From the NCBI GenBank assembly GCA_017537925.1, contig JAFYJW010000035.1:1-37541 (forward strand): a stretch of 37,541 bases of DNA, given 5' to 3'. This document shows positions 17,430 through 28,959 of this stretch, in pieces (within the stretch, counting starts at the first letter, position 1; every line of letters begins with the position of its first letter). Made by a program: the position numbers and the translations under genes. This DNA is from Synergistes sp. Its GTDB lineage: Bacteria > Synergistota > Synergistia > Synergistales > Synergistaceae. Under the pieces are notes generated by a model. That model did no database searches and was not told the DNA's origin. It worked only from the letters and a program-made list of their open reading frames with translations.

Positions 17430-17702
17430 ATGAGAGTAGTGAAAATAAAAAGCGGCGCTGCCGAAGGCGCGGCAATAGAAACAGAGCGCGGTTTCGTGAT
17501 GATAAAGACGCTTAATGAAGAAAAACGCTCGGAGTGGCCCGAGAATTATGAGGATTACCTCTCCGGGGGCAAAGCCGCGCCGCTCGTCAGATGGTACGAA
17601 GCAGGAGGGGCGGCGCTGCTTGAAAATATAAGCCGGCGTCTTCTGATCGAGCGGGAAAAAGCGGAAATAACGGACGGGCCCTTCGACGTAAGTCTCGGAT
17701 AA
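17430..17702 (+). CDS. Conserved-looking small protein of unknown function
   Basis: 90 residues, starting MRVVKIKSGAAEG. It has a good ribosome-binding site (GGAGGAAG 6 nt upstream) and core-like codon use, which supports a real gene. No signal peptide, membrane segment or Cys motif. The first 30 residues vaguely resemble the small N-terminal beta domain found before fumarylacetoacetate-hydrolase domains, but no catalytic domain follows. It lies 31 nt after the ROK gene, probably in the same operon. Confidence 0.7.
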   Translation: MRVVKIKSGAAEGAAIETERGFVMIKTLNEEKRSEWPENYEDYLSGGKAAPLVRWYEAGGAALLENISRRLLIEREKAEITDGPFDVSLG

Positions 17703-17746
17703 AAACCTTTTGCCGCAGCGTCTGCTGCGCGTGCTATCCGTACCCC

Positions 17747-17775
17747 TTGTGAAATCGTCATTTTTTTTGTAAAAT
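17747..17775 (+). promoter_or_regulatory. rny promoter
   Basis: TTGTGA, a 17-bp spacer containing an eight-T run, then TAAAAT. The predicted transcription start is near 17782, giving a leader of about 95 nt before rny. Confidence 0.5.
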
Positions 17776-17783
17776 ATCTAAGA

Positions 17784-17806
17784 GCCGGCAGGGGTTCATT
17801 GCCGGC
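17784..17806 (+). other. Hairpin at the 5' end of the predicted rny leader
   Basis: GCCGGCA / TGCCGGC (7-bp perfect stem, 9-nt loop) followed by CTTTAAATTT. It starts within a few nt of the predicted rny transcription start, so it would form a 5'-terminal stem in the rny mRNA. Alternatively it is a weak terminator of the upstream operon; the U-tract is poor. Confidence 0.45.
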
Positions 17807-17877
17807 CTTTAAATTTGATTCTACGTCTTACGTTTATGCGTACCATGACAAATGAATAATGAGGTGAAGTGAAAAAC

Positions 17878-19419
17878 ATGGAAGCACTATTAGCGGTATT
17901 ATGTGTGATCTTCGGCCTGGCGGCAGGCTCTTTCGGAGGTTACACATACTACAGGAAAAACGAAGAGAAAAAAATTCGCGGAAGTCTGTCGGAAGCAGAA
18001 CGAATCATAAGGGACGCCGCAAAAAAAGCGGAAGCTTCAAAGCGTGAGATCCTGGCAGAAGGCAAGGAAGAGATCCTGAAACTCAGACAGGAGCTCGACC
18101 GCGACACAAAGGAAAGACGTGCCGAACTGCAGCGGTCGGAACGCAGACTGGAGCAGAAAGAAGAGAATCTCGACAGAAAGATCGAGAATATCAGCCGCAG
18201 GGAAGAAGATCTGAAAAGCCGGAACGAACAGGTCCAGGAAAAGCTTAACAGACTTTCTGCCCAGGAACAGGAACTTATCGAGAAACTTGAACAGATAGCC
18301 CGGCTTACCAGAGACGAGGCACGCGCCCAGCTCCTTGCGGAAGTCGAGACGGAGGCCAATCACCTGATCGGGCTTCGCCTGAAAGAACTTGAAGAAAGGG
18401 CTAAGCGCGACGCGGACCGCAAGGCTCAGGATATCCTGGCCGTTGCGATACAGCGCTGCAGCGTTGATTACGCTTCAGACGCGGTGGTGAGCGTTGTAAG
18501 CCTGCCGTCGGACGAGATGAAAGGACGCATCATCGGCCGCGAAGGGCGCAATATCAGGACTTTTGAAACTCTAACCGGAGTTGACCTAATAGTTGACGAT
18601 ACACCGGAAGCGGTGACTTTGAGCAGCTTTGATCCTGTGCGGCGTGAAGTCGCACGCCTTTCTCTTGAGAGGCTCGTTGTCGACGGCAGGATACATCCGG
18701 CCAGAATAGAAGAAATAATAGAAAAGGCCGAGAAAGATGTTCAGGCTCAGATTATCGAGACAGCCGAAGAAGCGCTTCTGGAAACGGGTATAAAGAATAT
18801 GCATGCGGAACTTGCGAAGATAGTCGGCCAGCTGCGCTACCGTACGAGCTACGGTCAGAACGCGCTCTCTCACAGCCTTGAGGTCGCCCACCTTGCCGGC
18901 GTAATGGCGGCGGAGCTTGGGCTTGATGAGCTTAAGGCAAGAAGGGCCGGTCTGCTGCATGATATAGGCAAGGCCGTCGATCACCAGATAGAAGGTCCTC
19001 ATGCGAAGATAGGAGCCGATATCGCAAAGCGCTACGGCGAAGCGCCGGATATAGTGAACGCGATAGCTTCACACCACGAAGACGAAGAACCGCAGACGAT
19101 ATACGCGCTGCTTGTGGCGGCGGCCGACGCGGTCAGCGCCTCCCGCCCCGGTGCGCGCAGAGAGAGCCTTGACGCCTATGTGAAGCGTCTTGAGAAACTT
19201 GAAGAAGTCGCCAACGCTTTCCACGGCGTAAGCAAGGCTTATGCGATACAGGCAGGGCGCGAGGTCAGGGTCGCTGTGGCTCCCGAAGTCACCGACGAGG
19301 GAGAGATGCAGAAGCTTGCATATGATATTGCCCGCAAGATAGAAGAAGATCTGAGATATCCCGGACAGATAAAAGTCACGCTTATAAAAGAGACACGTGC
19401 TGTCGAATACGCCAAATAG
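17878..19419 (+). CDS. rny: Ribonuclease Y
   Basis: Membrane-anchored endoribonuclease that starts mRNA decay. 513 residues, typical. An N-terminal membrane helix (about 3-22, LLAVLCVIFGLAAGSFGGYTYY) is followed by a long charged coiled coil (about 30-190). Next comes a KH domain with IIGREGRNIRTFETLTGVD, then an HD domain with HSLEVAHLAG and LLHDIGKAVDH. ATG at 17878 is preceded by GAGGTG with 11-nt spacing; the GTG at 17869 is too near that site. The long 5' leader has a terminal hairpin. ymdB follows 18 nt downstream, the same pairing as in Bacillus. Confidence 0.96.
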   Translation: MEALLAVLCVIFGLAAGSFGGYTYYRKNEEKKIRGSLSEAERIIRDAAKKAEASKREILAEGKEEILKLRQELDRDTKERRAELQRSERRLEQKEENLDRKIENISRREEDLKSRNEQVQEKLNRLSAQEQELIEKLEQIARLTRDEARAQLLAEVETEANHLIGLRLKELEERAKRDADRKAQDILAVAIQRCSVDYASDAVVSVVSLPSDEMKGRIIGREGRNIRTFETLTGVDLIVDDTPEAVTLSSFDPVRREVARLSLERLVVDGRIHPARIEEIIEKAEKDVQAQIIETAEEALLETGIKNMHAELAKIVGQLRYRTSYGQNALSHSLEVAHLAGVMAAELGLDELKARRAGLLHDIGKAVDHQIEGPHAKIGADIAKRYGEAPDIVNAIASHHEDEEPQTIYALLVAAADAVSASRPGARRESLDAYVKRLEKLEEVANAFHGVSKAYAIQAGREVRVAVAPEVTDEGEMQKLAYDIARKIEEDLRYPGQIKVTLIKETRAVEYAK

Positions 19420-19437
19420 GCGTCGGGACCGGCAGAT

Positions 19438-20214
19438 ATGCGCATACTTTTTATAGGCGATATAATGGGCCGTCCTGGACGCGACGCCGTCTCATCGGAA
19501 ATACCTAAGCTGCGCGAAGAGTTCGGCGGCTTTGATTTTATCATAGCCAACGGAGAAAACAGCGCCCGGGGTTTCGGTCTTACGGAAAAGGTCATGAATG
19601 AGCTTTTTGATGCCGGCATCGATATCCTGACAAACGGCAATCATGTTTGGGATAAAAAAGAGTTCATTCCTGTGCTTGACGCGGAAAAGCGCGTTCTGCG
19701 GCCTGCCAACCATCCGGCAGGGACCTGCGGGAAGGGCTGCGCCGTTTATGAAAAAAACAAAAAAAAGCTCGCGGTCCTGTGCCTTCAGGGGCGCACTTTC
19801 ATGCCTCCGCTGGATTGTCCTTTCCAGACAGCCGACAGACTGATCTCAGAATGTCCCGTTCCTTCTGTATTTGTGGATATCCATGCTGAGGCGACGTCCG
19901 AAAAAAGGGCGCTGGGGCTCTATCTGGACGGACGCGTATCCGCGGTCGTAGGAACGCACACACACGTTCAGACAGCGGACGAAGGCATACTTCCCGGCGG
20001 TACGGCCTATTTGTCTGATGCCGGAATGACCGGCGGACACGCCGGCATAATAGGCATGACGGCAGAATCTGTACTGCCTAAGTTCCTGCAGGGGACGCCG
20101 TTCAGGTTCGAGATCTGCGAAGAAGATGTGAGGTTTCAGGGCGCGGTCATAGAGATCGATGAAGAGACAGGCCGTTCCCTGAATATTGAAAGAATCAACA
20201 GAAGCATTGTTTAA
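19438..20214 (+). CDS. ymdB: YmdB-type 2',3'-cyclic-nucleotide phosphodiesterase / metallophosphoesterase
   Basis: 258 residues, typical for the TIGR00282 family. Metal-binding signatures in order: GDIMGRPGRDAV, ANGENSARGFG, TNGNHVWDKKE, DIHAEATSEKRALG and GTHTHVQTADE. Cytosolic, without a signal peptide. It follows rny, a partnership seen in many bacteria where YmdB affects RNA turnover. The ribosome-binding site before ATG 19438 is weak, in line with coupling to rny. The unit ends in a strong terminator. Confidence 0.94.
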   Translation: MRILFIGDIMGRPGRDAVSSEIPKLREEFGGFDFIIANGENSARGFGLTEKVMNELFDAGIDILTNGNHVWDKKEFIPVLDAEKRVLRPANHPAGTCGKGCAVYEKNKKKLAVLCLQGRTFMPPLDCPFQTADRLISECPVPSVFVDIHAEATSEKRALGLYLDGRVSAVVGTHTHVQTADEGILPGGTAYLSDAGMTGGHAGIIGMTAESVLPKFLQGTPFRFEICEEDVRFQGAVIEIDEETGRSLNIERINRSIV

Positions 20215-20222
20215 AAGTGCTG

Positions 20223-20259
20223 AAAACCGCGCGCATTGCTCTTATGCGCGCGGTTTTTT
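20223..20259 (+). terminator. Strong intrinsic terminator after ymdB
   Basis: Perfect 14-bp stem AAAACCGCGCGCAT / ATGCGCGCGGTTTT with a 7-nt loop, extending into a T-run. It begins 9 nt after the ymdB stop. Confidence 0.92.
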
Positions 20260-20363
20260 CGTGGCGTGCGGAAAAGATTTCGCATATGGGCCGCCCCGGA
20301 AAGATTCAAAAAAAGCGGCGTATATCATGATAAGAACAGGAGAGAAATACGCCTGTTTTCTTA

Positions 20364-20392
20364 TTGTCCGCAAACGGCTTTTATGTTATAAA
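20364..20392 (+). promoter_or_regulatory. Promoter of the NSS transporter gene
   Basis: TTGTCC, 17-bp spacer, TATAAA; the predicted start lies about 60 nt upstream of the GTG. The -35 overlaps the word TGTCCGCAAA, which recurs near 27.9-28.1 kb. Confidence 0.5.
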
Positions 20393-20458
20393 ATTCAAAG
20401 TTGCAATTATTCAGTTTATAAGTTGGTACTCGTGTGATACCCCGAAGGAGTGGTCTTT

Positions 20459-21802
20459 GTGTCGGATAATAACGGAAAGAGAGAAGAGTGGGGCAGCAAG
20501 TTCGGTTTTATAATGGCGGCTGCAGGTTCGGCCGTCGGTCTCGGGAACGTGTGGCGCTTCCCGTATATTACGGGTAAGTACGGCGGGGGAGCTTTTGTCC
20601 TTGTTTATCTGATCATTGTGACTGTAATAGGTTCTTCTCTTATGCTGGCTGAATTTGCGCTGGGGCGCAGGGCGAGACTCGATTCGGTAGGAACATTCAG
20701 GAAATTAGGCGGAGGCGCATGGCCTGTTGTTGGCTGGATGGGCTTTTTCTGCGGCTTTGTCATTCTTTCATACTACGCTGTGATAGCCGGATGGACTCTT
20801 GCGTATATGTTCAAGTCCTTGGGCGGGCTTATGGAGGCGGTCTCTGGCGGCAGGGCCGCGGAAGTATTCGGCGCCTTTGTTTCCGACCCCGTGCAGGCGA
20901 TAGCTTACCACCTGGCCGTGATGGCTATTGTTGTCGCTGTCGTGTGCCGGGGGATAGGCGCAGGTATCGAAAAGAGCTGCAAAGTCCTTATGCCGGTGCT
21001 TTTTCTGATACTGATCCTGCTTATCGCGCGTGCCGTTACCCTTCCCGGCGCCGCGGAAGGGCTGAAATTTTATCTGCTGCCTGATTTCTCAAAGCTTTCC
21101 GGAGAAGCCGTGCTCTCGGCTGTGGGGCAGGGCTTCTACTCCCTTTCACTTGCAATGGGGATAATAATCACCTACGGAAGTTATCTCGGCAAAGACGAGT
21201 ACATGCCGAAGGTCACTTCAACCATAGTGCTGCTTGACACAGCTGTTGCCGTAATGGCCGGGCTGATAATCTTCCCGGCGGTCTTTGCCTTCGGCGTCGA
21301 CGCGGGCGCGGGCCCCGGCCTTACCTTTGTGACGCTGCCGATAGTATTCGCAAAAATGCCGATGGGGGCGCTCTTTTCGTTTGCCTTCTTTGCGCTGCTC
21401 TTCATAGCTGCACTTACGTCGGCTTTTTCTCTCTTTGAAGTTGTGGTCGCGTTCGCCGTAGACGAGATAGGCTGGACGAGGATGAGATCGTCGCTGATAA
21501 TGGGCATAGCCGTAGCGCTTCTCGGGATACCGTCGGCCCTTTCCGTTGGCGGGCATTTCCCGAAGATATATGGCAAGGATTTTCTTGACGCGATGGATTT
21601 CATCACGAATAACGCCGTTATGCCTATATGCGGCATTCTTACTTCATTCTTTGTCGGCTGGCTCTGGACGAAGGGCGCGAAGGAGGAGGTCACGAACGGC
21701 GGGACGCATGACTTCCCGATGTATACCGCGTGGCTCTGGGTTTGCCGTATAGTTGTTCCCATCAGCGTAGCGCTGATATTTATAAAAGGTCTGAAGTGGT
21801 AA
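20459..21802 (+). CDS. Sodium-dependent transporter, NSS (SNF) family
   Basis: Inner-membrane sodium symporter of the neurotransmitter:sodium symporter family; bacterial members import amino acids such as Leu, Trp or Tyr. 447 residues with about 11-12 hydrophobic segments. TM1 carries the signature AAAGSAVGLGNVWRFPYI with the unwound sodium/substrate site, followed by GGGAFVLVYL. Other family blocks are ILSYYAVIAGWTLAY and LYSLSLAMG-like QGFYSLSLAMGIIITYGSY. GTG at 20459 has AAGGAG 8 nt upstream, preferred over the GTG at 20450. About 22 of its roughly 36 Ile codons are ATA, the core pattern. Substrate unassigned; no small partner subunit seen next to it. Confidence 0.93.
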   Translation: MSDNNGKREEWGSKFGFIMAAAGSAVGLGNVWRFPYITGKYGGGAFVLVYLIIVTVIGSSLMLAEFALGRRARLDSVGTFRKLGGGAWPVVGWMGFFCGFVILSYYAVIAGWTLAYMFKSLGGLMEAVSGGRAAEVFGAFVSDPVQAIAYHLAVMAIVVAVVCRGIGAGIEKSCKVLMPVLFLILILLIARAVTLPGAAEGLKFYLLPDFSKLSGEAVLSAVGQGFYSLSLAMGIIITYGSYLGKDEYMPKVTSTIVLLDTAVAVMAGLIIFPAVFAFGVDAGAGPGLTFVTLPIVFAKMPMGALFSFAFFALLFIAALTSAFSLFEVVVAFAVDEIGWTRMRSSLIMGIAVALLGIPSALSVGGHFPKIYGKDFLDAMDFITNNAVMPICGILTSFFVGWLWTKGAKEEVTNGGTHDFPMYTAWLWVCRIVVPISVALIFIKGLKW

Positions 21803-22134
21803 GGGAATCAATATCTGTAAACAATTTCTGATAAATAACGGGTTTTCAGGCATAACATACAAAAGGGGATGAATAGTGATGATGTCGCAGAAAGAACGGC
21901 GATATCGGAGGGGGTCGTCCCCTTGTCTTATTTATGTTTTTGCAGAAACGACGATGAATTGCAAACGGATGGGGATATGCTGTTGAGAATACTGTACCTT
22001 ATTCCCCGCCCTGACTGTCCTTAGTCAACAGACGCCTTTGGGTTTGGATTTTCTCGGAATTGTGCATCCGAAGCGGTCAAGGCATATTATGTATAACAGA
22101 GTTGTCTCTCTCGGATTTGTTACAATAAAACGGC
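21803..22134. other. Intergenic stretch at the left edge of the accessory block
   Basis: About 330 nt without a convincing gene. A 51-codon frame (21869-22024, MNSDDVAERTAISEGVVPLSY...) follows AAGGGG with no spacer, and a second overlapping short frame starts at 21877; neither shows homology I recognise or a membrane segment. The codon mix and two-frame ambiguity suggest a decayed fragment or non-coding DNA. Confidence 0.4.
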
Positions 22135-22191
22135 GAACCCCTTTGAAGCCTCCCCAAACATACGATTGTGTGGGTGGATTCAAAGGGGTTC
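22135..22191 (-). terminator. Long hairpin after the histidine kinase gene
   Basis: 13-bp perfect arms GAACCCCTTTGAA / TTCAAAGGGGTTC flank a 31-nt interior that can pair further imperfectly. It begins 16 nt beyond the kinase stop codon on the minus strand and is followed there by GCCGTTTTATT. Most likely a terminator; the length also fits a small palindromic repeat element. Confidence 0.55.
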
Positions 22192-22206
22192 ACTTTAACG
22201 ATATGT

Positions 22207-23493
22207 TTACTCTGCGGCGCGGTCCGGGATCATCACCGTCACCACGGCACCTCCGCCTTCCCTGGGAGTGATTGTCAGGCTCCCACCGCACATCATTTCC
22301 AGTCTCTGCCGGATGTTGTTCAGCGCGGCACGGGGCTTGCTCTCGTCGGAGGGATTGAAGCCCGGGCCGATATCCTCCACGATGATTTCGGTGGCGGAAC
22401 GTCCGCTTCCGCCGGCATCCGTGTGTCGTGTCCGGATGGAGATGCGCAGCGGGCCGGAGTAGGGGTTAATGCCATGCTTGACGGCATTCTCCACGATGGG
22501 CTGAAGGGTCAGCGGAGGCAGACGGAAATGTATAAACGGCGTATCGTATTCCACAATAAGCAGTTCATCATACCGTGCCTCTTCCACGGCCAAATAGGCG
22601 CGGGTGTGTTCCAGCTCCGCGGCAAAGGTAATGAGGTCTCCGCTGGCGACGGCATTGAAGTTCTTTTGCAGGTAAGTAGTGAAATCCATGGTGACCTGCC
22701 GGGCCTTCTTAGGGTCCTGATTGCAAAGGCTGTAGATGCTCATCAGGGTGTTGTAGATGAAGTGGGGCCGCATCTGCAGCATCATGACATTGGCGCGCTG
22801 ACGGGCGATTTCCTGCTGCTGTCGCATATCCTGCTCGATCTGATCTGACAGGATGAGAATATACATCGAAAAAACGCAGAAGGCGATTCCTAAAACAAAG
22901 AGCGCGAAGGCGGAGACGAAAAAATGGAGGAACATGGTAGCCGTCATTGGGACCAGGCTGACGAGGAAGGCGTAATAGTATTTTTTTGCCATCCGTTTCC
23001 GTCGGCGGATCACTCCGGCCAGGGCAATGAGCGCCATCACAAACAGGAAGCCCAGCAGCAGGGGGTAGAGGGGGCCGCGGCAGAGCCGGTTCTCCGGCAG
23101 GATATAGTAGCCCCAGCTTGTGAACGGGGTCATATTCAACAGGATGAAGGATCCGGCCCACAGGGCTGCCACAAGTCGAAAAAGCATGCTGCTCCGCGGG
23201 CTTTCCCCGCAGCAGTGGAGCAGATAAACCGTCAGCATGGGAACCAGGAGCGAAGGGAACAGTGTGTTGATATAGTACAGGATTCCCAGCGCGAACCTGA
23301 CGCCCGGACGGCCCTCCAAGAATACCTCAAGCAGGGCTGCGCTCCCGTACACTAAGAGAAAGGTGAAAAAAGCGATGAAGAAGCGCTTGCTCCACCGGTC
23401 AATGCCGGGTAAGACGGCGGCGATGACAAGGCTCATCAGAAGCATTATCATCGCGGTGGCCATCAGCAGAAGCTGAATTGTCAACCCGTTCAC
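22207..23493 (-). CDS. LytS-type sensor histidine kinase
   Basis: 428 residues. About six hydrophobic segments fill residues 5-213, with no obvious extracellular sensor domain, so the membrane region itself probably senses. A short coiled coil (217-240) leads to the His_kinase block with the phospho-acceptor His244 in MRPHFIYNTL. Next come the N box PIVENAVKHG (332-341) and the G box VEDIGPGFN in a HATPase domain. This is the HPK7/LytS-AgrC-like class that pairs with receiver regulators. GTG 23493 has GGGAGGTG upstream, lying inside the end of the regulator gene 6 nt away, so the two are translationally coupled. Ile codons are mostly ATC/ATT, unlike flanking core genes. Confidence 0.92.
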   Translation of the reverse strand: MNGLTIQLLLMATAMIMLLMSLVIAAVLPGIDRWSKRFFIAFFTFLLVYGSAALLEVFLEGRPGVRFALGILYYINTLFPSLLVPMLTVYLLHCCGESPRSSMLFRLVAALWAGSFILLNMTPFTSWGYYILPENRLCRGPLYPLLLGFLFVMALIALAGVIRRRKRMAKKYYYAFLVSLVPMTATMFLHFFVSAFALFVLGIAFCVFSMYILILSDQIEQDMRQQQEIARQRANVMMLQMRPHFIYNTLMSIYSLCNQDPKKARQVTMDFTTYLQKNFNAVASGDLITFAAELEHTRAYLAVEEARYDELLIVEYDTPFIHFRLPPLTLQPIVENAVKHGINPYSGPLRISIRTRHTDAGGSGRSATEIIVEDIGPGFNPSDESKPRAALNNIRQRLEMMCGGSLTITPREGGGAVVTVMIPDRAAE

Positions 23494-23499
23494 AGGGAA

Positions 23500-24099
23500 T
23501 CACCTCCCAAGGTCCCCGAATAAAATGGGATACCGCAGCTTTTCAAGCTGCATGCGTACCTTCTCGGGAGTCAGCGGCTTGACCATGAAACCACAGGCTT
23601 TGGATTCCCATGCCGGCAAAGAGTAGTCTGGGAAGGCAGTCAGATAGACCACATTGGTGCGGGGATTGATGTCAAGCAGCGTTTGGCACAGCTCAAGGCC
23701 GCTGGCTGTCCCCAGTTCAATATCCAGAACCGCCAAAGCGACCTGGTTCATTCTGGCATATTCTATTGCCTCCTGAGGCCAGATAAATCCCCTGATCGTG
23801 GCGGCCGGCATGACCTCATCCAGAACTGCCAGGCTGTCGTTGAGGATGACCTTTTCGTCGTCCACTATGATGATATGGGGCGATCCCTCACTCCTTGCCG
23901 CCGCCAGAAGCAGTGTGCTGACATCTACATCAAGAACCCCGGAAATGTTGGTGATCATCTCGGCGTCCGGCAGCCGGATGCCGTTTTCCCAACGGGCGAT
24001 GGTGGACTGGTTGACAAAGAGCTGCTTTCCCAGCTCAGCCTGTGAAAGGCCACTTTCTGTTCGGAGTTTTTTCAGCGTTTCCGAGAATAAATTGTTCAT
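23500..24099 (-). CDS. Response regulator with N-terminal XRE helix-turn-helix and C-terminal receiver
   Basis: 199 residues. The order is reversed compared with ordinary response regulators. HTH_3/XRE domain at about 5-62 (LRTESGLSQAELGKQLFVNQ, then STIARWENGIRLP), then a receiver domain at about 75-190. Receiver residues are complete: Asp80-Asp81 (IVDDE), phospho-acceptor Asp126 (VLDIEL), Thr154 (YLTAF) and Lys174 (VKPL). It should bind DNA through the XRE domain, with phosphorylation by the adjacent kinase controlling this. ATG 24099 has AGAGGAG 10 nt upstream; longer starts add nothing recognisable. Divergent from the amidohydrolase gene; a 17-bp palindrome lies between. Confidence 0.92.
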   Translation of the reverse strand: MNNLFSETLKKLRTESGLSQAELGKQLFVNQSTIARWENGIRLPDAEMITNISGVLDVDVSTLLLAAARSEGSPHIIIVDDEKVILNDSLAVLDEVMPAATIRGFIWPQEAIEYARMNQVALAVLDIELGTASGLELCQTLLDINPRTNVVYLTAFPDYSLPAWESKACGFMVKPLTPEKVRMQLEKLRYPILFGDLGR

Positions 24100-24172
24100 G
24101 TGAAAGCTTCTCCTCTTTACATTCAAAATAAACCGACCAGGCGAAAAAAGCAAGTGCCGTGAAAAATCGGAT

Positions 24173-24189
24173 TATTCCATTCTGGAATA
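24173..24189. promoter_or_regulatory. Candidate operator between regulator and amidohydrolase
   Basis: Perfect inverted repeat TATTCCATTCTGGAATA (7-bp arms, 3-bp spacer) in the 158-nt divergent intergenic region, 74 nt upstream of the regulator start and 69 nt upstream of the amidohydrolase start. It is the only clear palindrome there, and XRE dimers bind such sites. That this regulator binds it is an inference. Confidence 0.45.
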
Positions 24190-24257
24190 TCCTCTTGAAT
24201 TAAGGTAATAAATGATTGGAAAATATTGCCATACCATATGGAAGGAGAACTCATTGC

Positions 24258-25895
24258 ATGAGACAGACGCTTATTCTCGGCAACATCATCACCGTGGACC
24301 CAAAGCGTCCGACGGCGAAAGCGGCGGTGGTCAAGAACGGCGTGTTCGCCTATATCGGCGACGAGGAGACAGCGAAGCAGCTCGCCGGGCCGGACGCGAA
24401 GGTGCTGGATTACGGCGAGAACTACATCTATCCCGGCTTTCTGGAATCCCACTGCCACGGCTATCTGGCCGGCGACCGTGCCATCGGGCAGGCGAACCTC
24501 GCGCAGATCACCGAAGCCGACTACGCGAAATACCGCGAGATCATCAAGGACTTCATCGAAAAGAACCCGCAGCGTGATTACTACCTGGCCGCGGGATGGG
24601 TCGAAAACGACGTATATGTTGACAGGGGAGATTTGGACGAGATCTGCGCCGATAAACCGTTGCTGGTTCAGACGGGTGGCGGACACTCCATGCTGCTCAA
24701 TACCATAGCGCTGAAACTGGCCGGCATCGACGCGGCCTACGCAAAGGAAAAGGGCTACGATCTGGTGCATGTGGACAAAAACGGCGAACCGGACGGCTAC
24801 ATCTGTGAAGCGCCTGTGTTTGAACTGTATCCCAATCTTCCAACCACCCTTGAGAACGCCAAGGAATACCTGCTCGCATGGCAGGACATCGCCCTCGCAA
24901 ATGGCTACACCGCAGTTGGAGACGCGGGCGTAGAGGTCACCAATGCGATTGCTGTCAGGGCTTTCTACGAGCTGGAACAGGAGGGCAAACTGAAGCTGCG
25001 CACCTATGCCTACCTGCTGTGCCCGGACAATCCCGAAGACCCGAAGGCGGAGGTGGCCCGCATCGCCGCGGACCGCGCAAAGTACAGCGGCGAATACTTC
25101 CATGTCGTGGGCGTCAAGACGTACCTGGACGGTGTGACCGAGGCGCATACGGGCTGGCAGAACCAGGATTACCTGGACCAGCCGGGCTATCACGGCAACG
25201 AGCGCTTCAACGACCATGACAAGATGGTGGAGCTGATCACGGCGGCGGACGCGGAGGGCCTCTCTGTCCACGTCCACTCCGAAGGCGGCGGCGCGACGCA
25301 CTTCATGCTGGGCTGCATCGAGGACGCGGAAAAGATCACAGGCGACCTGGATCAGCGCAACGTGCTGGCGCATCTGCACTTCGTCACTGACGAGGATATC
25401 CGCCGCATGGCGGAAACCGGCTCCGTTCCGGCGGTCGCGCCGCTTTGGACGCCTAAGGAAGCAAATATTTATGAACAGGAAGTCAGGTATGTCGGTCAGG
25501 AGATTGCGGATCAGGCTTATCCTATCAAGTCTTTCTGTGATGCCGGCGCGAACGTGGTCTTCCATTCGGACTATCCGGTTTCTCCGATGATGAATGTCAA
25601 ATACAGCATTTACATGGCGGAAACCCGGGCGTTTCCAAAGCAGCTCGGTTACGGCGGAATGGAAACCCAGCGCAATGTCAAGGAAGCCGTCACCCGCGAG
25701 CAGTCCTTGCGCGCCATGACCATCAACGTCGCCCGGCAGTTCCGTCAGGAGGATCGCATGGGTTCCATCGAGTTCGGCAAGCTCGCCAACATGACGGTGT
25801 ACGACTGCGACTTCCTGCACGACGACATCGAGAAGGTCGCGGAGGCAAACCTCGTCGCCACCATCGTGGACGGTGAAGAAGTATATAAGGCGTAA
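24258..25895 (+). CDS. YtcJ-like amidohydrolase (amidohydrolase family 3)
   Basis: 545 residues, typical for the family. Cytosolic metal-dependent hydrolase with a TIM barrel flanked by a small beta domain. Motifs in order: N-terminal beta domain (LILGNIITVDPKRPTAKAAVV), HxH at His65/His67 (FLESHCHGYL), a candidate carboxylated lysine in VGVKTYLDG, metal-site histidines in VHVHSEGGG and LAHLHFV, and the catalytic aspartate in FHSDYPVSP. The C-terminal beta strands end GSIEFGKLANMTVYD. Members hydrolyse N-acyl amino acids, exoenzyme substrates or unknown amides; the substrate cannot be read. ATG 24258 has AAGGAG 10 nt upstream. Only about 1 of 27 Ile codons is ATA, evidence of foreign origin. 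The DUF3089 gene follows 16 nt later. Confidence 0.92.
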   Translation: MRQTLILGNIITVDPKRPTAKAAVVKNGVFAYIGDEETAKQLAGPDAKVLDYGENYIYPGFLESHCHGYLAGDRAIGQANLAQITEADYAKYREIIKDFIEKNPQRDYYLAAGWVENDVYVDRGDLDEICADKPLLVQTGGGHSMLLNTIALKLAGIDAAYAKEKGYDLVHVDKNGEPDGYICEAPVFELYPNLPTTLENAKEYLLAWQDIALANGYTAVGDAGVEVTNAIAVRAFYELEQEGKLKLRTYAYLLCPDNPEDPKAEVARIAADRAKYSGEYFHVVGVKTYLDGVTEAHTGWQNQDYLDQPGYHGNERFNDHDKMVELITAADAEGLSVHVHSEGGGATHFMLGCIEDAEKITGDLDQRNVLAHLHFVTDEDIRRMAETGSVPAVAPLWTPKEANIYEQEVRYVGQEIADQAYPIKSFCDAGANVVFHSDYPVSPMMNVKYSIYMAETRAFPKQLGYGGMETQRNVKEAVTREQSLRAMTINVARQFRQEDRMGSIEFGKLANMTVYDCDFLHDDIEKVAEANLVATIVDGEEVYKA

Positions 25896-25911
25896 AAGGA
25901 GAAAAAGGAAA

Positions 25912-26949
25912 ATGGAATTGAAGCCAAAAACCGTAACACCAGGGATGATTAAAACCTTGTTTCATGCTTTGGCCAACGGTCAGATGGCAGAGGAGCTTAC
26001 ATCCGCATACGCAGCAGACGCGCCCGACTATTCCCTTGAGGACTGCTGGTTGCAGGTTCCTCAGATCAAGAAGGACATCGACACCTTCTACATCTACTCC
26101 ACGGTCTACATTGAGTCCAGCTTTGAGGAAGGAGCCCCTGATTACGCTACGCTCGACAACCCCGAGATGCTGCTGGGCGCACTGGAAGAATACGCTACAA
26201 ACGCAACCGTGTATGAGGAGGCCACGAATGTGTTCGTGCCTTATTACCGTCAATCCGGCATGCGGTACGCGGTGGAAGCTTCGAAGAAGACAGGGGGCAT
26301 TGACACGGCGCTTTCCGGCATCTCCTACGACGACATCAGCGCCGCGCTCGACTATTATTTCGAGCATTGCAACGGTGGTCGCCCGTTCATCATCGCAGGG
26401 CACAGCCAAGGTTCCGCGATGGTCAAGTATGTATTGAAAAATTACTTCAAAAAGCACCCTGAATACTACGAGCGCATGGTAGCGGCTTATGTTATTGGCT
26501 ACTCTGTCACGAAGGAAGACCTTGCGGCCAACCCGCATCTGAAGTTTGCGTCCGGTGAAAGCGACACGGGTGTGATCATCAGCTACAACACCGAAGGGCC
26601 AAAGAACGTGGAGGAAAACGCCAATAATGTCGTGGTACTTCCCAACGCAATCAGCATCAACCCGCTGAACTGGAAGCTCGATGCCACCTACGCACCGGCG
26701 AGCGAGAACCTGGGATCCTATCTGCCGAATGCTGAAACCGAGATGTATGAGATAACCAATGTCGGCGCGGACGCACAGGTGGTTCTTGACCGTGGCGTGA
26801 TTGTGACGAAAACCACATATGACCAATACGCCGCCGCAGAAGACTTCGGACCACAGAGCTTCCACGAGGTCGACTACACGCTCTATTACAACAACATCAA
26901 GGACAACGTGGCGAAGAGAATCGCAGCCTATCAAGCGGGCAAACAGTGA
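25912..26949 (+). CDS. DUF3089-type alpha/beta hydrolase
   Basis: 345 residues, no signal peptide or membrane segment, so probably cytosolic. The nucleophile elbow GHSQGS places Ser165, preceded by NGGRPFIIA. ATVYEEATNVFVPYYRQSG at about 98-116 is the family's 'N.f....V.aPrYRQ' block. The catalytic His is probably His318 in FHEVDYTLYYNN near the C-terminus, where DUF3089 proteins carry an HxxDY motif. The family is uncharacterised; esterase or lipase activity is likely from the fold. It follows the amidohydrolase by 16 nt with its own AAGGAG site, so they are co-transcribed. Ile codons again are almost all ATC/ATT. Confidence 0.85.
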   Translation: MELKPKTVTPGMIKTLFHALANGQMAEELTSAYAADAPDYSLEDCWLQVPQIKKDIDTFYIYSTVYIESSFEEGAPDYATLDNPEMLLGALEEYATNATVYEEATNVFVPYYRQSGMRYAVEASKKTGGIDTALSGISYDDISAALDYYFEHCNGGRPFIIAGHSQGSAMVKYVLKNYFKKHPEYYERMVAAYVIGYSVTKEDLAANPHLKFASGESDTGVIISYNTEGPKNVEENANNVVVLPNAISINPLNWKLDATYAPASENLGSYLPNAETEMYEITNVGADAQVVLDRGVIVTKTTYDQYAAAEDFGPQSFHEVDYTLYYNNIKDNVAKRIAAYQAGKQ

Positions 26950-27071
26950 CAGAAAGGAATGCTTGAAATCACCTGCTCCATTGAAGTTGGGAAATCCGCG
27001 TAGCTCGTCGTTTTGGACAGCGACATCGAAACGGTTCCAGTGTAGCAGATTCGGTATATTCAAGCGCTCGA

Positions 27072-27102
27072 AACGGCATTCAAGGGGAGAACGGCATTCA
27101 AG
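27072..27102 (+). repeat. Short direct repeat, 13 bp twice at 18-bp period
   Basis: AACGGCATTCAAG occurs at 27072-27084 and 27090-27102 in the non-coding gap between the DUF3089 gene and the membrane-protein gene. No function evident. Confidence 0.6.
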
Positions 27103-27120
27103 AAAGATTAAAGAGCTCCA

Positions 27121-27152
27121 TGGGCAGCCCACCGCGTGGTTTGGGCTGCCCA
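27121..27152. terminator. Hairpin between DUF3089 gene and membrane-protein gene
   Basis: Perfect 11-bp stem TGGGCAGCCCA / TGGGCTGCCCA with a 10-nt loop. On the plus strand it is followed by AAAACT, not a T-run, so termination is uncertain. It separates the two-hydrolase operon from the next gene, whose start is 34 nt downstream. Confidence 0.45.
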
Positions 27153-27185
27153 AAACTATGAAGGGAGTAGGTGAGGAGAAGCGAC

Positions 27186-27875
27186 ATGGCCAGACGTAAT
27201 ATTGTCAGATTATTTGAATTAAGAAAGGGAAATCTGGATTCTCGAGTAAACCGGGATTATGTAAACAACGGAATTGCGACCATTCCCTGCCGCATTTCCG
27301 ACTATAGCGATGTAATCAGCACATATAGCGTTAAGGGTTTTGAGATACCGAATACAGAATTTATTGATTATCTCAAGGAGACCGCGGAGGTGACACCGTC
27401 AGAGTGTCCGCTGGTTTTGGACATCGTTGGGGATTGTCTGTCTCAGGAAGATAAAAAGACCATTGAGGAAACGCTTCTTGACAATCTTGCTTATCAGCTT
27501 GGCATGGTGGAAAAGGACGAGAAGCGGCATACGCACACCTTTGTCCTTATGATGATCGGTCTGATTGTTTCGGGATTATTGCTGTGGTTTACGAGAGATC
27601 TGGCGGAAGAAGCGCGCGAGCTTTTTTTTATTCTGTTTTGGTTTATGGGTGATACACTATGTGACTACATCTTTCTGACTGGGTATGATCTCCGTCGGGA
27701 AAGAAGGCTGGCCGGACGACTTGCGAGTATCAAGGTCATTTTTTCAGAAAGTTATGAAGCTCCAAATTACACGGAAAGCGACGTTGACCAGTTGTATACC
27801 GAGATTGAAAAGAAAGTCAATAAAACGATTCGGGAAGAGGAGAATGATGTACTGTATGTTCATGTCCGCAAATAG
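27186..27875 (+). CDS. Two-TM membrane protein of unknown function
   Basis: 229 residues, not recognised. The N-terminal about 110 residues are soluble and mixed. Two hydrophobic helices follow at about 116-134 (FVLMMIGLIVSGLLLWF) and 142-163 (LFFILFWFMGDTLCDYIFL), then a basic stretch (YDLRRERRLAGRL) and a charged C-terminal helix (TEIEKKVNKTIREEEN). The basic residues after TM2 put both termini in the cytoplasm by the positive-inside rule. ATG 27186 has GAGGAG 8 nt upstream. It lies beyond a hairpin from the hydrolase genes and may be a separate unit. Confidence 0.75.
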   Translation: MARRNIVRLFELRKGNLDSRVNRDYVNNGIATIPCRISDYSDVISTYSVKGFEIPNTEFIDYLKETAEVTPSECPLVLDIVGDCLSQEDKKTIEETLLDNLAYQLGMVEKDEKRHTHTFVLMMIGLIVSGLLLWFTRDLAEEARELFFILFWFMGDTLCDYIFLTGYDLRRERRLAGRLASIKVIFSESYEAPNYTESDVDQLYTEIEKKVNKTIREEENDVLYVHVRK

Positions 27876-27977
27876 GGCCTCTCAGAAGCCTGTTTTTCGC
27901 CGCTTTACGGGATGGAATACCTGAGGGTAAAGAAATCGTAAGGGACGCCTCAAAACCGTGTTCAATTTGCGGACATG
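27861..27977. repeat. 13-bp inverted repeat at the right edge of the accessory block
   Basis: CATGTCCGCAAAT (27861-27873, ending in the stop codon of the membrane-protein gene) and its exact complement ATTTGCGGACATG (27965-27977). The core TGTCCGCAAA recurs at 28056-28065 and at 20365-20374. Could be remnants of element ends or a binding-site family. Confidence 0.5.
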
Positions 27978-28085
27978 GAAACGATCCGAGGAACGCATCG
28001 GCTGAAAGCGATGATACGGAAAAGCGAGTGTGTACATGGCATGAACCACCATAGTTGTCCGCAAAATGGTGCATAACCGAATCGA

Positions 28086-28118
28086 GGAATCCAAGCGGCA
28101 TTTTGCCGTTTGGATTCC
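28086..28118. terminator. Hairpin ending the accessory block
   Basis: GGAATCCAA / TTGGATTCC with additional inner pairing (GCGGCA / TGCCGT) around TTT. It lies between the convergent membrane-protein gene and the minus-strand gene ending at 28134, so it can serve both. No strong T-run. Confidence 0.5.
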
Positions 28119-28133
28119 TTGTAAGTAGTTGCG

Positions 28134-28712
28134 TTATGCGGGTTCGTTGCTTTGACCGAGCAGGAAACCGATCAGCCCTGATGCGTCCGCAGAAGCCCCG
28201 CTGAAGCCGTCGATCAGCTGATTGCCGCGAAGGATATAAACGTGCCAGACGAATCTCTCCTCGGCGGGTCTTGCGATCACCTTTGCCGATGTTATGCCGC
28301 GCCGCCATCCTCTTGCGCAGTCCGGGACTGCCGCTTCATCCGCAAGCGCCGCCGCCGTTGTTCTGCTCAGCTTTGCGTCAAGCCTGCGGCAGGCGCATGG
28401 AAGGGAAAGATCGTCTGCCACTTCCGCTGTGCCTTCGATGAGCCACGTCCTGCCACTTGCCGCATCTACCGCTGCGGTTACCGGGATGAGCTTTACGCCG
28501 AAAAATATCCCCCTCAGCATGACATTTGCGCCAAAGAGGTAGACGGGCGACAGTATCGCTGTGTCGCTTTCCGAAACAGGTATCTTGACTGGCAGGAAAC
28601 TTTTCGGTTCTTCTTGCATGCCTTCACCGTTTATATATCTGCAGGATATGTACCCTTTGCTGCGATAAATGCTCAGGCGTATCCACGGGTGTTCCGGAGT
28701 GCCGGGCGTCAT
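28134..28712 (-). CDS. Unknown protein downstream of the SRP RNA
   Basis: Up to 192 residues; not recognised. Contains VYLFGANVMLRGIFFGVKLIPV (partly hydrophobic), a repeated alanine-rich stretch and FVWHVYILRGNQLIDGFSG near the C-terminus. No signal peptide. The open frame extends further upstream through the SRP RNA gene but that part cannot be coding. ATG 28712 lies in the SRP RNA terminator without a ribosome-binding site; ATG 28619 (MQEEPKSFLPVKIP) with weak GAAGG is an alternative giving 161 residues. Codon use fits the core genome. Confidence 0.55.
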   Translation of the reverse strand: MTPGTPEHPWIRLSIYRSKGYISCRYINGEGMQEEPKSFLPVKIPVSESDTAILSPVYLFGANVMLRGIFFGVKLIPVTAAVDAASGRTWLIEGTAEVADDLSLPCACRRLDAKLSRTTAAALADEAAVPDCARGWRRGITSAKVIARPAEERFVWHVYILRGNQLIDGFSGASADASGLIGFLLGQSNEPA

Positions 28713-28720
28713 AAAAAAAT

Positions 28721-28843
28721 GCCCTTTACGGGCGGCCCAGCTGCCCCATGGCACCCGCAAGATTCCGCTTATCGCTGCTTCCTTCCGGACCTGACGAGGT
28801 TCACGGGCTTGCGCCGCATGGGACTGGGCAGCCCGTAAAGGGC
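28721..28843 (-). ncRNA. ffs: Small (bacterial) signal recognition particle RNA
   Basis: The minus strand contains the conserved SRP apical domain GTCAGGTCCGGAAGGAAGCA at about 28794-28775. Long flanking arms pair: GCCCTTTACGGGC / GCCCGTAAAGGGC at the ends, then GCCCAG / CTGGGC. A T-rich run (28720-28713) directly follows the closing stem, so the terminal stem doubles as an intrinsic terminator. The mature ends are estimated; the RNA is about 100-120 nt. It binds Ffh and targets membrane proteins. It lies 24 nt after tRNA-Ser and probably shares its transcript. Confidence 0.93.
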
Positions 28844-28867
28844 ATGCCGGCGTCTTTTGACAAAAAA

Positions 28868-28959
28868 TGGCGGAGAGGATGGGATTTGAACCCATGGAAG
28901 AGTTTGACCCCTTCACTCACTTTCCAGGCGAGCTCCTTCGACCGCTCAGACACCTCTCC
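28868..28959 (-). tRNA. tRNA-Ser (GGA)
   Basis: 92-nt class II tRNA on the minus strand. Acceptor stem GGAGAGG pairs with CCTCTCC, followed by G and encoded CCA. The D arm contains GAGCGGTCGAAGGAGC. The anticodon loop CTGGAAA gives anticodon GGA (Ser UCC/UCU). A long variable arm follows, then the T arm GGGTTCAAATCCC. Confidence 0.96.

Follow-up and report, generated by a model that had tools for sequence, protein, structure and literature searches.

DUF3089 proteins make up lipolytic family XV (Est10, Est5S, EstGK1, EstZ3), which was first found in cow and sheep rumen and whose members are measured esterases (PMC4431682). The bovine-rumen enzyme Est10 has a preference for C4 esters, and its substrates include phenyl acetate and methyl phenylacetate (PMC4431682). 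These enzymes were described as single esterases from clone libraries, and amidohydrolase is absent from the text of that study (PMC4431682). LytS/LytTR two-component systems, such as LytSR, BtsSR and YpdAB, combine a multi-TM kinase (PF06580 and HATPase domains) with a receiver-containing partner, in which the output domain is a C-terminal LytTR (PMC5552118, PMC4830213). The YtcJ-type metal-dependent hydrolases (Amidohydro_3, PF07969) are represented by the solved structures 3ICJ and 3IGH.

Relatives of all three lie together in the DNA analyzed here (the window), a stretch of 37,541 nucleotides from Synergistes sp. (GCA_017537925.1, contig JAFYJW010000035.1). The best explanation of this module, which we regard as fairly probable, is a hydrolase cassette that was acquired horizontally and is regulated locally, a trimmed form of the larger multi-hydrolase locus that mostly rumen bacteria carry. 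Its features are as follows.

21803 to 28152 (limits approximate), no strand: accessory island with five genes, defined by an empty site in another genome (G049)
22207 to 23493, minus strand: KIN, LytS-type sensor histidine kinase (about seven TM segments; PF06580, 3.6e-17; HATPase_c, 3.3e-7)
23500 to 24099, minus strand, the open reading frame reaching 24153: REG, response regulator with an N-terminal XRE helix-turn-helix (HTH_3, 5.7e-13) followed by a C-terminal receiver (Response_reg, 4.4e-12)
24173 to 24189, no strand: candidate operator, inverted repeat TATTCCA-TTC-TGGAATA, with the core TTCCAGAATGGAA on the minus strand at 24175-24187
24258 to 25895, plus strand: AMH, Amidohydro_3 (YtcJ-type) metal-dependent hydrolase (PF07969, 4.5e-59)
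25912 (ATG) to 26949, plus strand: DUF3089 serine hydrolase of lipolytic family XV (PF11288, 3.3e-44)
26950 to 27105 (approximate), plus strand: remnant (C-terminal end) of a second amidohydrolase gene, with three in-frame stops (tblastn E 2.8e-16)
27186 to 27875, plus strand: TM2, two-TM protein of an uncharacterized family, with two hydrophobic segments, a companion of these loci

A previous sequence-only reading had placed and named these five genes, and profile matches confirm its coordinates and families, with TM2 showing the two hydrophobic segments and no family (no match in Pfam, NCBIfam or PDB). Its description of the hydrolase genes as 16 nt apart, and of REG and KIN as coupled (6 nt apart), is likewise borne out by the sequence. 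The label ‘unknown purpose’ was too weak for the DUF3089 protein, because members of family XV are measured esterases (PMC4431682). This protein scores 151.3 bits against PF11288 (cut-off 23.4) and shares with family XV the DUF3089 domain, the GHSQG nucleophile motif and the rumen origin of its relatives (PMC4431682). In its GHSQGS motif and beyond, Ser165, Gly167 and His318 are invariant in 31 sequences and His164 and Gln166 nearly so, and its AF2 model (pLDDT 90) matches alpha/beta-hydrolase folds. Est10 is reported with a signal peptide, whereas no hydrophobic segment is seen at the N-terminus of the window protein; neither it nor AMH shows a TM segment. AMH is a full-length PF07969 match (201.6 bits; nearest solved structure 3ICJ) that keeps the metal-ligand columns: among 51 aligned relatives, H79 and H81 are present in 50 (one gap), and K301, H352, H354, H386 and D452 in all 51. 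No characterized close relative of AMH was found, and its plasmid-borne relatives are about 30% identical. We conclude that AMH and the DUF3089 protein probably constitute an inducible intracellular ester/amide hydrolase cassette. Overlooked by the earlier reading was the amidohydrolase remnant, with its three stops, that separates this pair from TM2; it is 60% identical to the amidohydrolase preceding DUF3089 in locus L051 and is also detected by PF07969. The two-TM gene of L154 and L173 directly follows an amidohydrolase frame that is still open.

The five genes are regarded as one accessory island because a genome of the same genus (G049, contig C204, locus L185) has both flanks nearly joined without them. 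The window flanks 17447-21802 and 28153-28619 (86.7% and 85.9% identical to G049, respectively) lie only 186 bp apart there, with none of the five genes in between, so that the block is missing as one unit. Another genome of the genus, G048, is uninformative on the empty site, as its right flank differs. Gain in the window genome, while not formally settled, is favored over loss in G049 by the DUF3089 tree, because the closest sequence (79% over 310 columns) is from the Lachnospiraceae member Oribacterium sp. C9 and sequences from several phyla are interspersed, a mixing to which paralogy and binning errors can contribute. No integrase gene is found among the open reading frames of the window, nor are clear terminal or flanking repeats found at the island ends, and homologous recombination may have brought the island in, or its mobility genes may since have been lost. 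Base composition gives no island signature (GC 0.46-0.59 within, similar outside). Phage carriage was rejected, the viral contigs holding no relative of the DUF3089 protein, as was plasmid carriage, given the low identity of the plasmid-borne amidohydrolases to AMH. Beyond the right end, a tRNA-Ser (GGA) lies at 28868-28959 on the minus strand; the open reading frame 28134-28916 begins inside it, and its true start is therefore further downstream. The gene of this reading frame is kept in G049, adjoining the empty site.

When 84,980 species genomes were scanned with the DUF3089 protein, 80 loci were obtained; the scan starts from conserved peptides and so samples only close relatives. Judged by title, most of these loci by far come from the rumen or from elsewhere in the ruminant gut. 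They belong to Bacillota, Bacteroidota, Synergistota, Planctomycetota, Lentisphaerota, Chloroflexota and other phyla. After de-duplication, a partner hydrolase lies no more than five genes away in 36 of 74 such rumen-type loci, partners being amidohydrolases, carboxylesterases, amidases, Ntn hydrolases and additional alpha/beta hydrolases. Among 528 neighbors, there are 49 amidohydrolase and 33 carboxylesterase genes. About half of the 74 show no partner, and some of the contigs are short. In a small control, none of eight distant DUF3089 loci from the window's own taxonomic family (61 neighbors) has one. A literature search found no description of such a gene cluster as a system. Rumen bacteria of several phyla appear to share an inducible ester- and amide-cleaving enzyme set. 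The identity of its inducer and substrate would tell what ruminant microbes jointly break down or neutralize, and would place the esterases of family XV, which have been known as isolated clones from metagenomes, in a context.

The sequence-only reading had further suggested that one signal compound is sensed and then hydrolyzed in two steps, AMH opening an amide and DUF3089 then an ester of the same molecule. The 16-nt spacing within one unit agrees with such a dedicated pathway, as do amidohydrolase-DUF3089 fusions, one of them in the window genome and others in L052 and L080. In other loci (L051, L058, L169), many paralogs and further hydrolase classes are present, and both the order and the number of the genes vary; they include several amidohydrolases, tandem DUF3089 domains, several carboxylesterases, amidases and Ntn hydrolases. 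DUF3089 is also found on its own and as double or triple self-fusions, and its fusions with carboxylesterase exist in either order (L060, L069); amidohydrolase-carboxylesterase fusions occur as well. Because the paralog sets vary in this way, the enzymes look more like parallel hydrolases than ordered steps, and we consider the two-step pathway unlikely. The compound that is sensed may also be the substrate. In the preferred explanation, AMH and the DUF3089 protein would act inside the cell on amide or ester bonds in small molecules, probably from plants or feed, working in parallel rather than strictly in sequence.

A second, larger hydrolase locus is present in the window genome, on contig C25 (1-16862; L097, L111). 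It contains, in order, genes for a kinase, a catalytically dead membrane esterase, TM2 and a regulator (these four consecutive), followed by an amidohydrolase, a MATE pump, an 866-aa amidohydrolase-DUF3089 fusion, a CitMHS carrier, a carboxylesterase, an amidohydrolase and a carboxylesterase. Its kinase/regulator pair differs from that of the window, with a LytS-type kinase and a receiver regulator carrying another output domain. This difference counts against the preferred explanation, as does the lack of a partner hydrolase at about half of the DUF3089 loci. All carboxylesterase (PF00135) matches in the genome are on C25 or on contig C51. An end of C51 matches the broken gene in which C25 terminates, and the two contigs presumably join. 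Loci of this kind raise the possibility of inducible detoxification, in which the hydrolases, together with the MATE pumps of the larger loci, would inactivate and export toxic compounds of plant, fungal or microbial origin instead of feeding the cell. This is a sharper form of the preferred explanation and compatible with it, and fits the MATE genes within such loci (L097, L047, L170, L172), the joint occurrence of amidase, Ntn (choloylglycine/penicillin-acylase-like) and carboxylesterase families, and the spread over phyla with one common habitat. The CitMHS-type anion carrier of C25, however, fits uptake or product exchange equally well, the window island contains no transporter, and no toxin was identified. 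We treat detoxification as possible though rather doubtful.

Control of the cassette is attributed to KIN and REG. KIN has seven hydrophobic segments, and its phospho-acceptor motif QMRPHFIYNT and N box QPIVEN are invariant among aligned relatives. It resembles the kinases of the LytS/LytTR systems in its PF06580 and HATPase domains, and REG resembles their partners in its receiver; unlike these, REG has an N-terminal XRE helix-turn-helix (HTH_3) as its output domain, and KIN gave no LytS sensor-domain match in Pfam at E<=0.01. The more likely start of REG is the ATG at 24099 rather than the limit of the open reading frame at 24153, since homologs open at the same MNxLFxETL. Relatives of REG occur in 18 of 183 same-class genomes including the window genome, mostly in two genera of another family, and neither of the two further genomes of the genus has relatives of KIN and REG. 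The conserved neighborhood for which the earlier reading had proposed to search does exist, with this kinase/regulator type adjacent to amidohydrolase, DUF3089 or carboxylesterase-type genes in several other genomes (L023, L038 (twice), L057, L061, L096, L136/L137, L142, L149, L169, L172). In several related genomes of family f6, the neighbors are large secreted proteins, not hydrolases; the pair is therefore seen as a local switch for adjacent cargo that is not exclusive to hydrolases.

The regions upstream of REG genes share a consensus element, TTCCAGAnTGTCAA, found with <=3 mismatches in 14 of 21 such regions (shuffles: mean 0.38, maximum 3). In the window, the element takes the symmetric form TTCCAGAATGGAA; it lies in the divergent promoter between REG and the hydrolases, with 70 nt separating it from the start of the amidohydrolase gene, and no other exact copy of it exists in the genome. 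Against a profile from which it was left out, the window site has a score of 10.8 (shuffles: mean 2.7, with 2 of 100 reaching this score), below the best sites because its right half is TGGAA instead of TGTCAA. In 1.4 Mb of loci, there are 23 sites with <=1 mismatch, compared to none for the reversed motif. The consensus was drawn partly from the same loci, so the sites at REG genes are not independent, while those at hydrolase genes are; in L058, L136 and L142, sites remote from REG precede Ntn-hydrolase genes by 83-99 nt. Co-regulation, the part of the proposed joint function that stands where the ordered steps do not, gains sequence support from the location of this element. The predicted mechanism is that KIN senses a membrane signal and phosphorylates REG, which would bind at TTCCAGAATGGAA and control both its own operon and the unit of AMH, DUF3089, the decayed amidohydrolase and TM2. 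Activation is the preferred sign, and the position of the candidate operator seems to resemble that of an activator site; this element makes the control testable by reporter. Chance side-by-side placement of unrelated genes would accommodate the occurrence of the kinase/regulator type with other cargo, but is very improbable in view of the recurring neighborhood, the fusions, the absence of the island as a unit and the shared operator. A generic sigma-70 promoter scan was also tried and performed no better than shuffles.

TM2 is found in two of 183 same-class genomes, the window genome (two copies) and G105, with all three copies beside hydrolase genes, and in 11 of 50 genomes picked for holding rumen-type DUF3089. 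Among 14 TM2 loci viewed, 11 have an amidohydrolase, carboxylesterase or DUF3089 nearby, and the others have only MATE, only a kinase/regulator pair, or none of these (one each). No function was read from the TM2 fold, as the model is moderate (pLDDT 75) and PDB gave no fold match. Genes for membrane-anchored type-B carboxylesterases (PF00135-type) often adjoin the TM2 gene or kinase genes. Ten such proteins were found in larger loci (L111:2338-4314, minus strand; L051, L052, L026, L061, L136, L137, L169, L172, L173) and none in the window. They have Glu, Asp or Gly at the position of the catalytic Ser, and none of the ten keeps the catalytic Ser or His. Both residues are present in the soluble carboxylesterases from these loci, among which L072_3 was counted. 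In L172, the regulator, kinase, TM2 and dead esterase genes occur in overlapping order. Neuroligins are catalytically dead, carboxylesterase-like receptors that are membrane-anchored and without a catalytic Ser. By analogy, the bacterial proteins share a membrane-anchored type-B carboxylesterase domain without the catalytic Ser, and differ in having about four N-terminal TM segments and a probably cytoplasmic esterase domain. A tentative and on balance improbable reading is that TM2 and the dead membrane esterase together provide LytS-type kinases with an intracellular ligand receptor, and that these kinases would switch on the matching hydrolases, the window being a reduced form without the dead esterase. 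If true, this would be a new kind of signaling assembly in these loci, and the TM2 family and dead esterase are concrete uncharacterized proteins with a possible signaling role.

Several further associations were observed in the related loci. In L030, L034, L037, L041, L044, L069, L070, L072 and other Bacteroidota loci, a multi-TM protein with a C-terminal AraC helix-turn-helix precedes DUF3089 or amidohydrolase genes and apparently stands in for the two-component pair; a common origin with the KIN sensor domain was considered and dismissed, as profile comparison showed no homology. In L149 (2968-7402, minus strand), a nonribosomal peptide synthetase (condensation-adenylation, then carrier-reductase) lies directly before DUF3089 and amidohydrolase genes, behind a kinase/regulator pair. 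Mechanosensitive-channel-like proteins of about 966 aa adjoin DUF3089 or kinase/TM2 genes in L057, L063, L078 and L091. L168 and L172 contain unscanned proteins of similar size, and in L168 a site of the operator motif separates the TM2 gene from one of these (965 aa).
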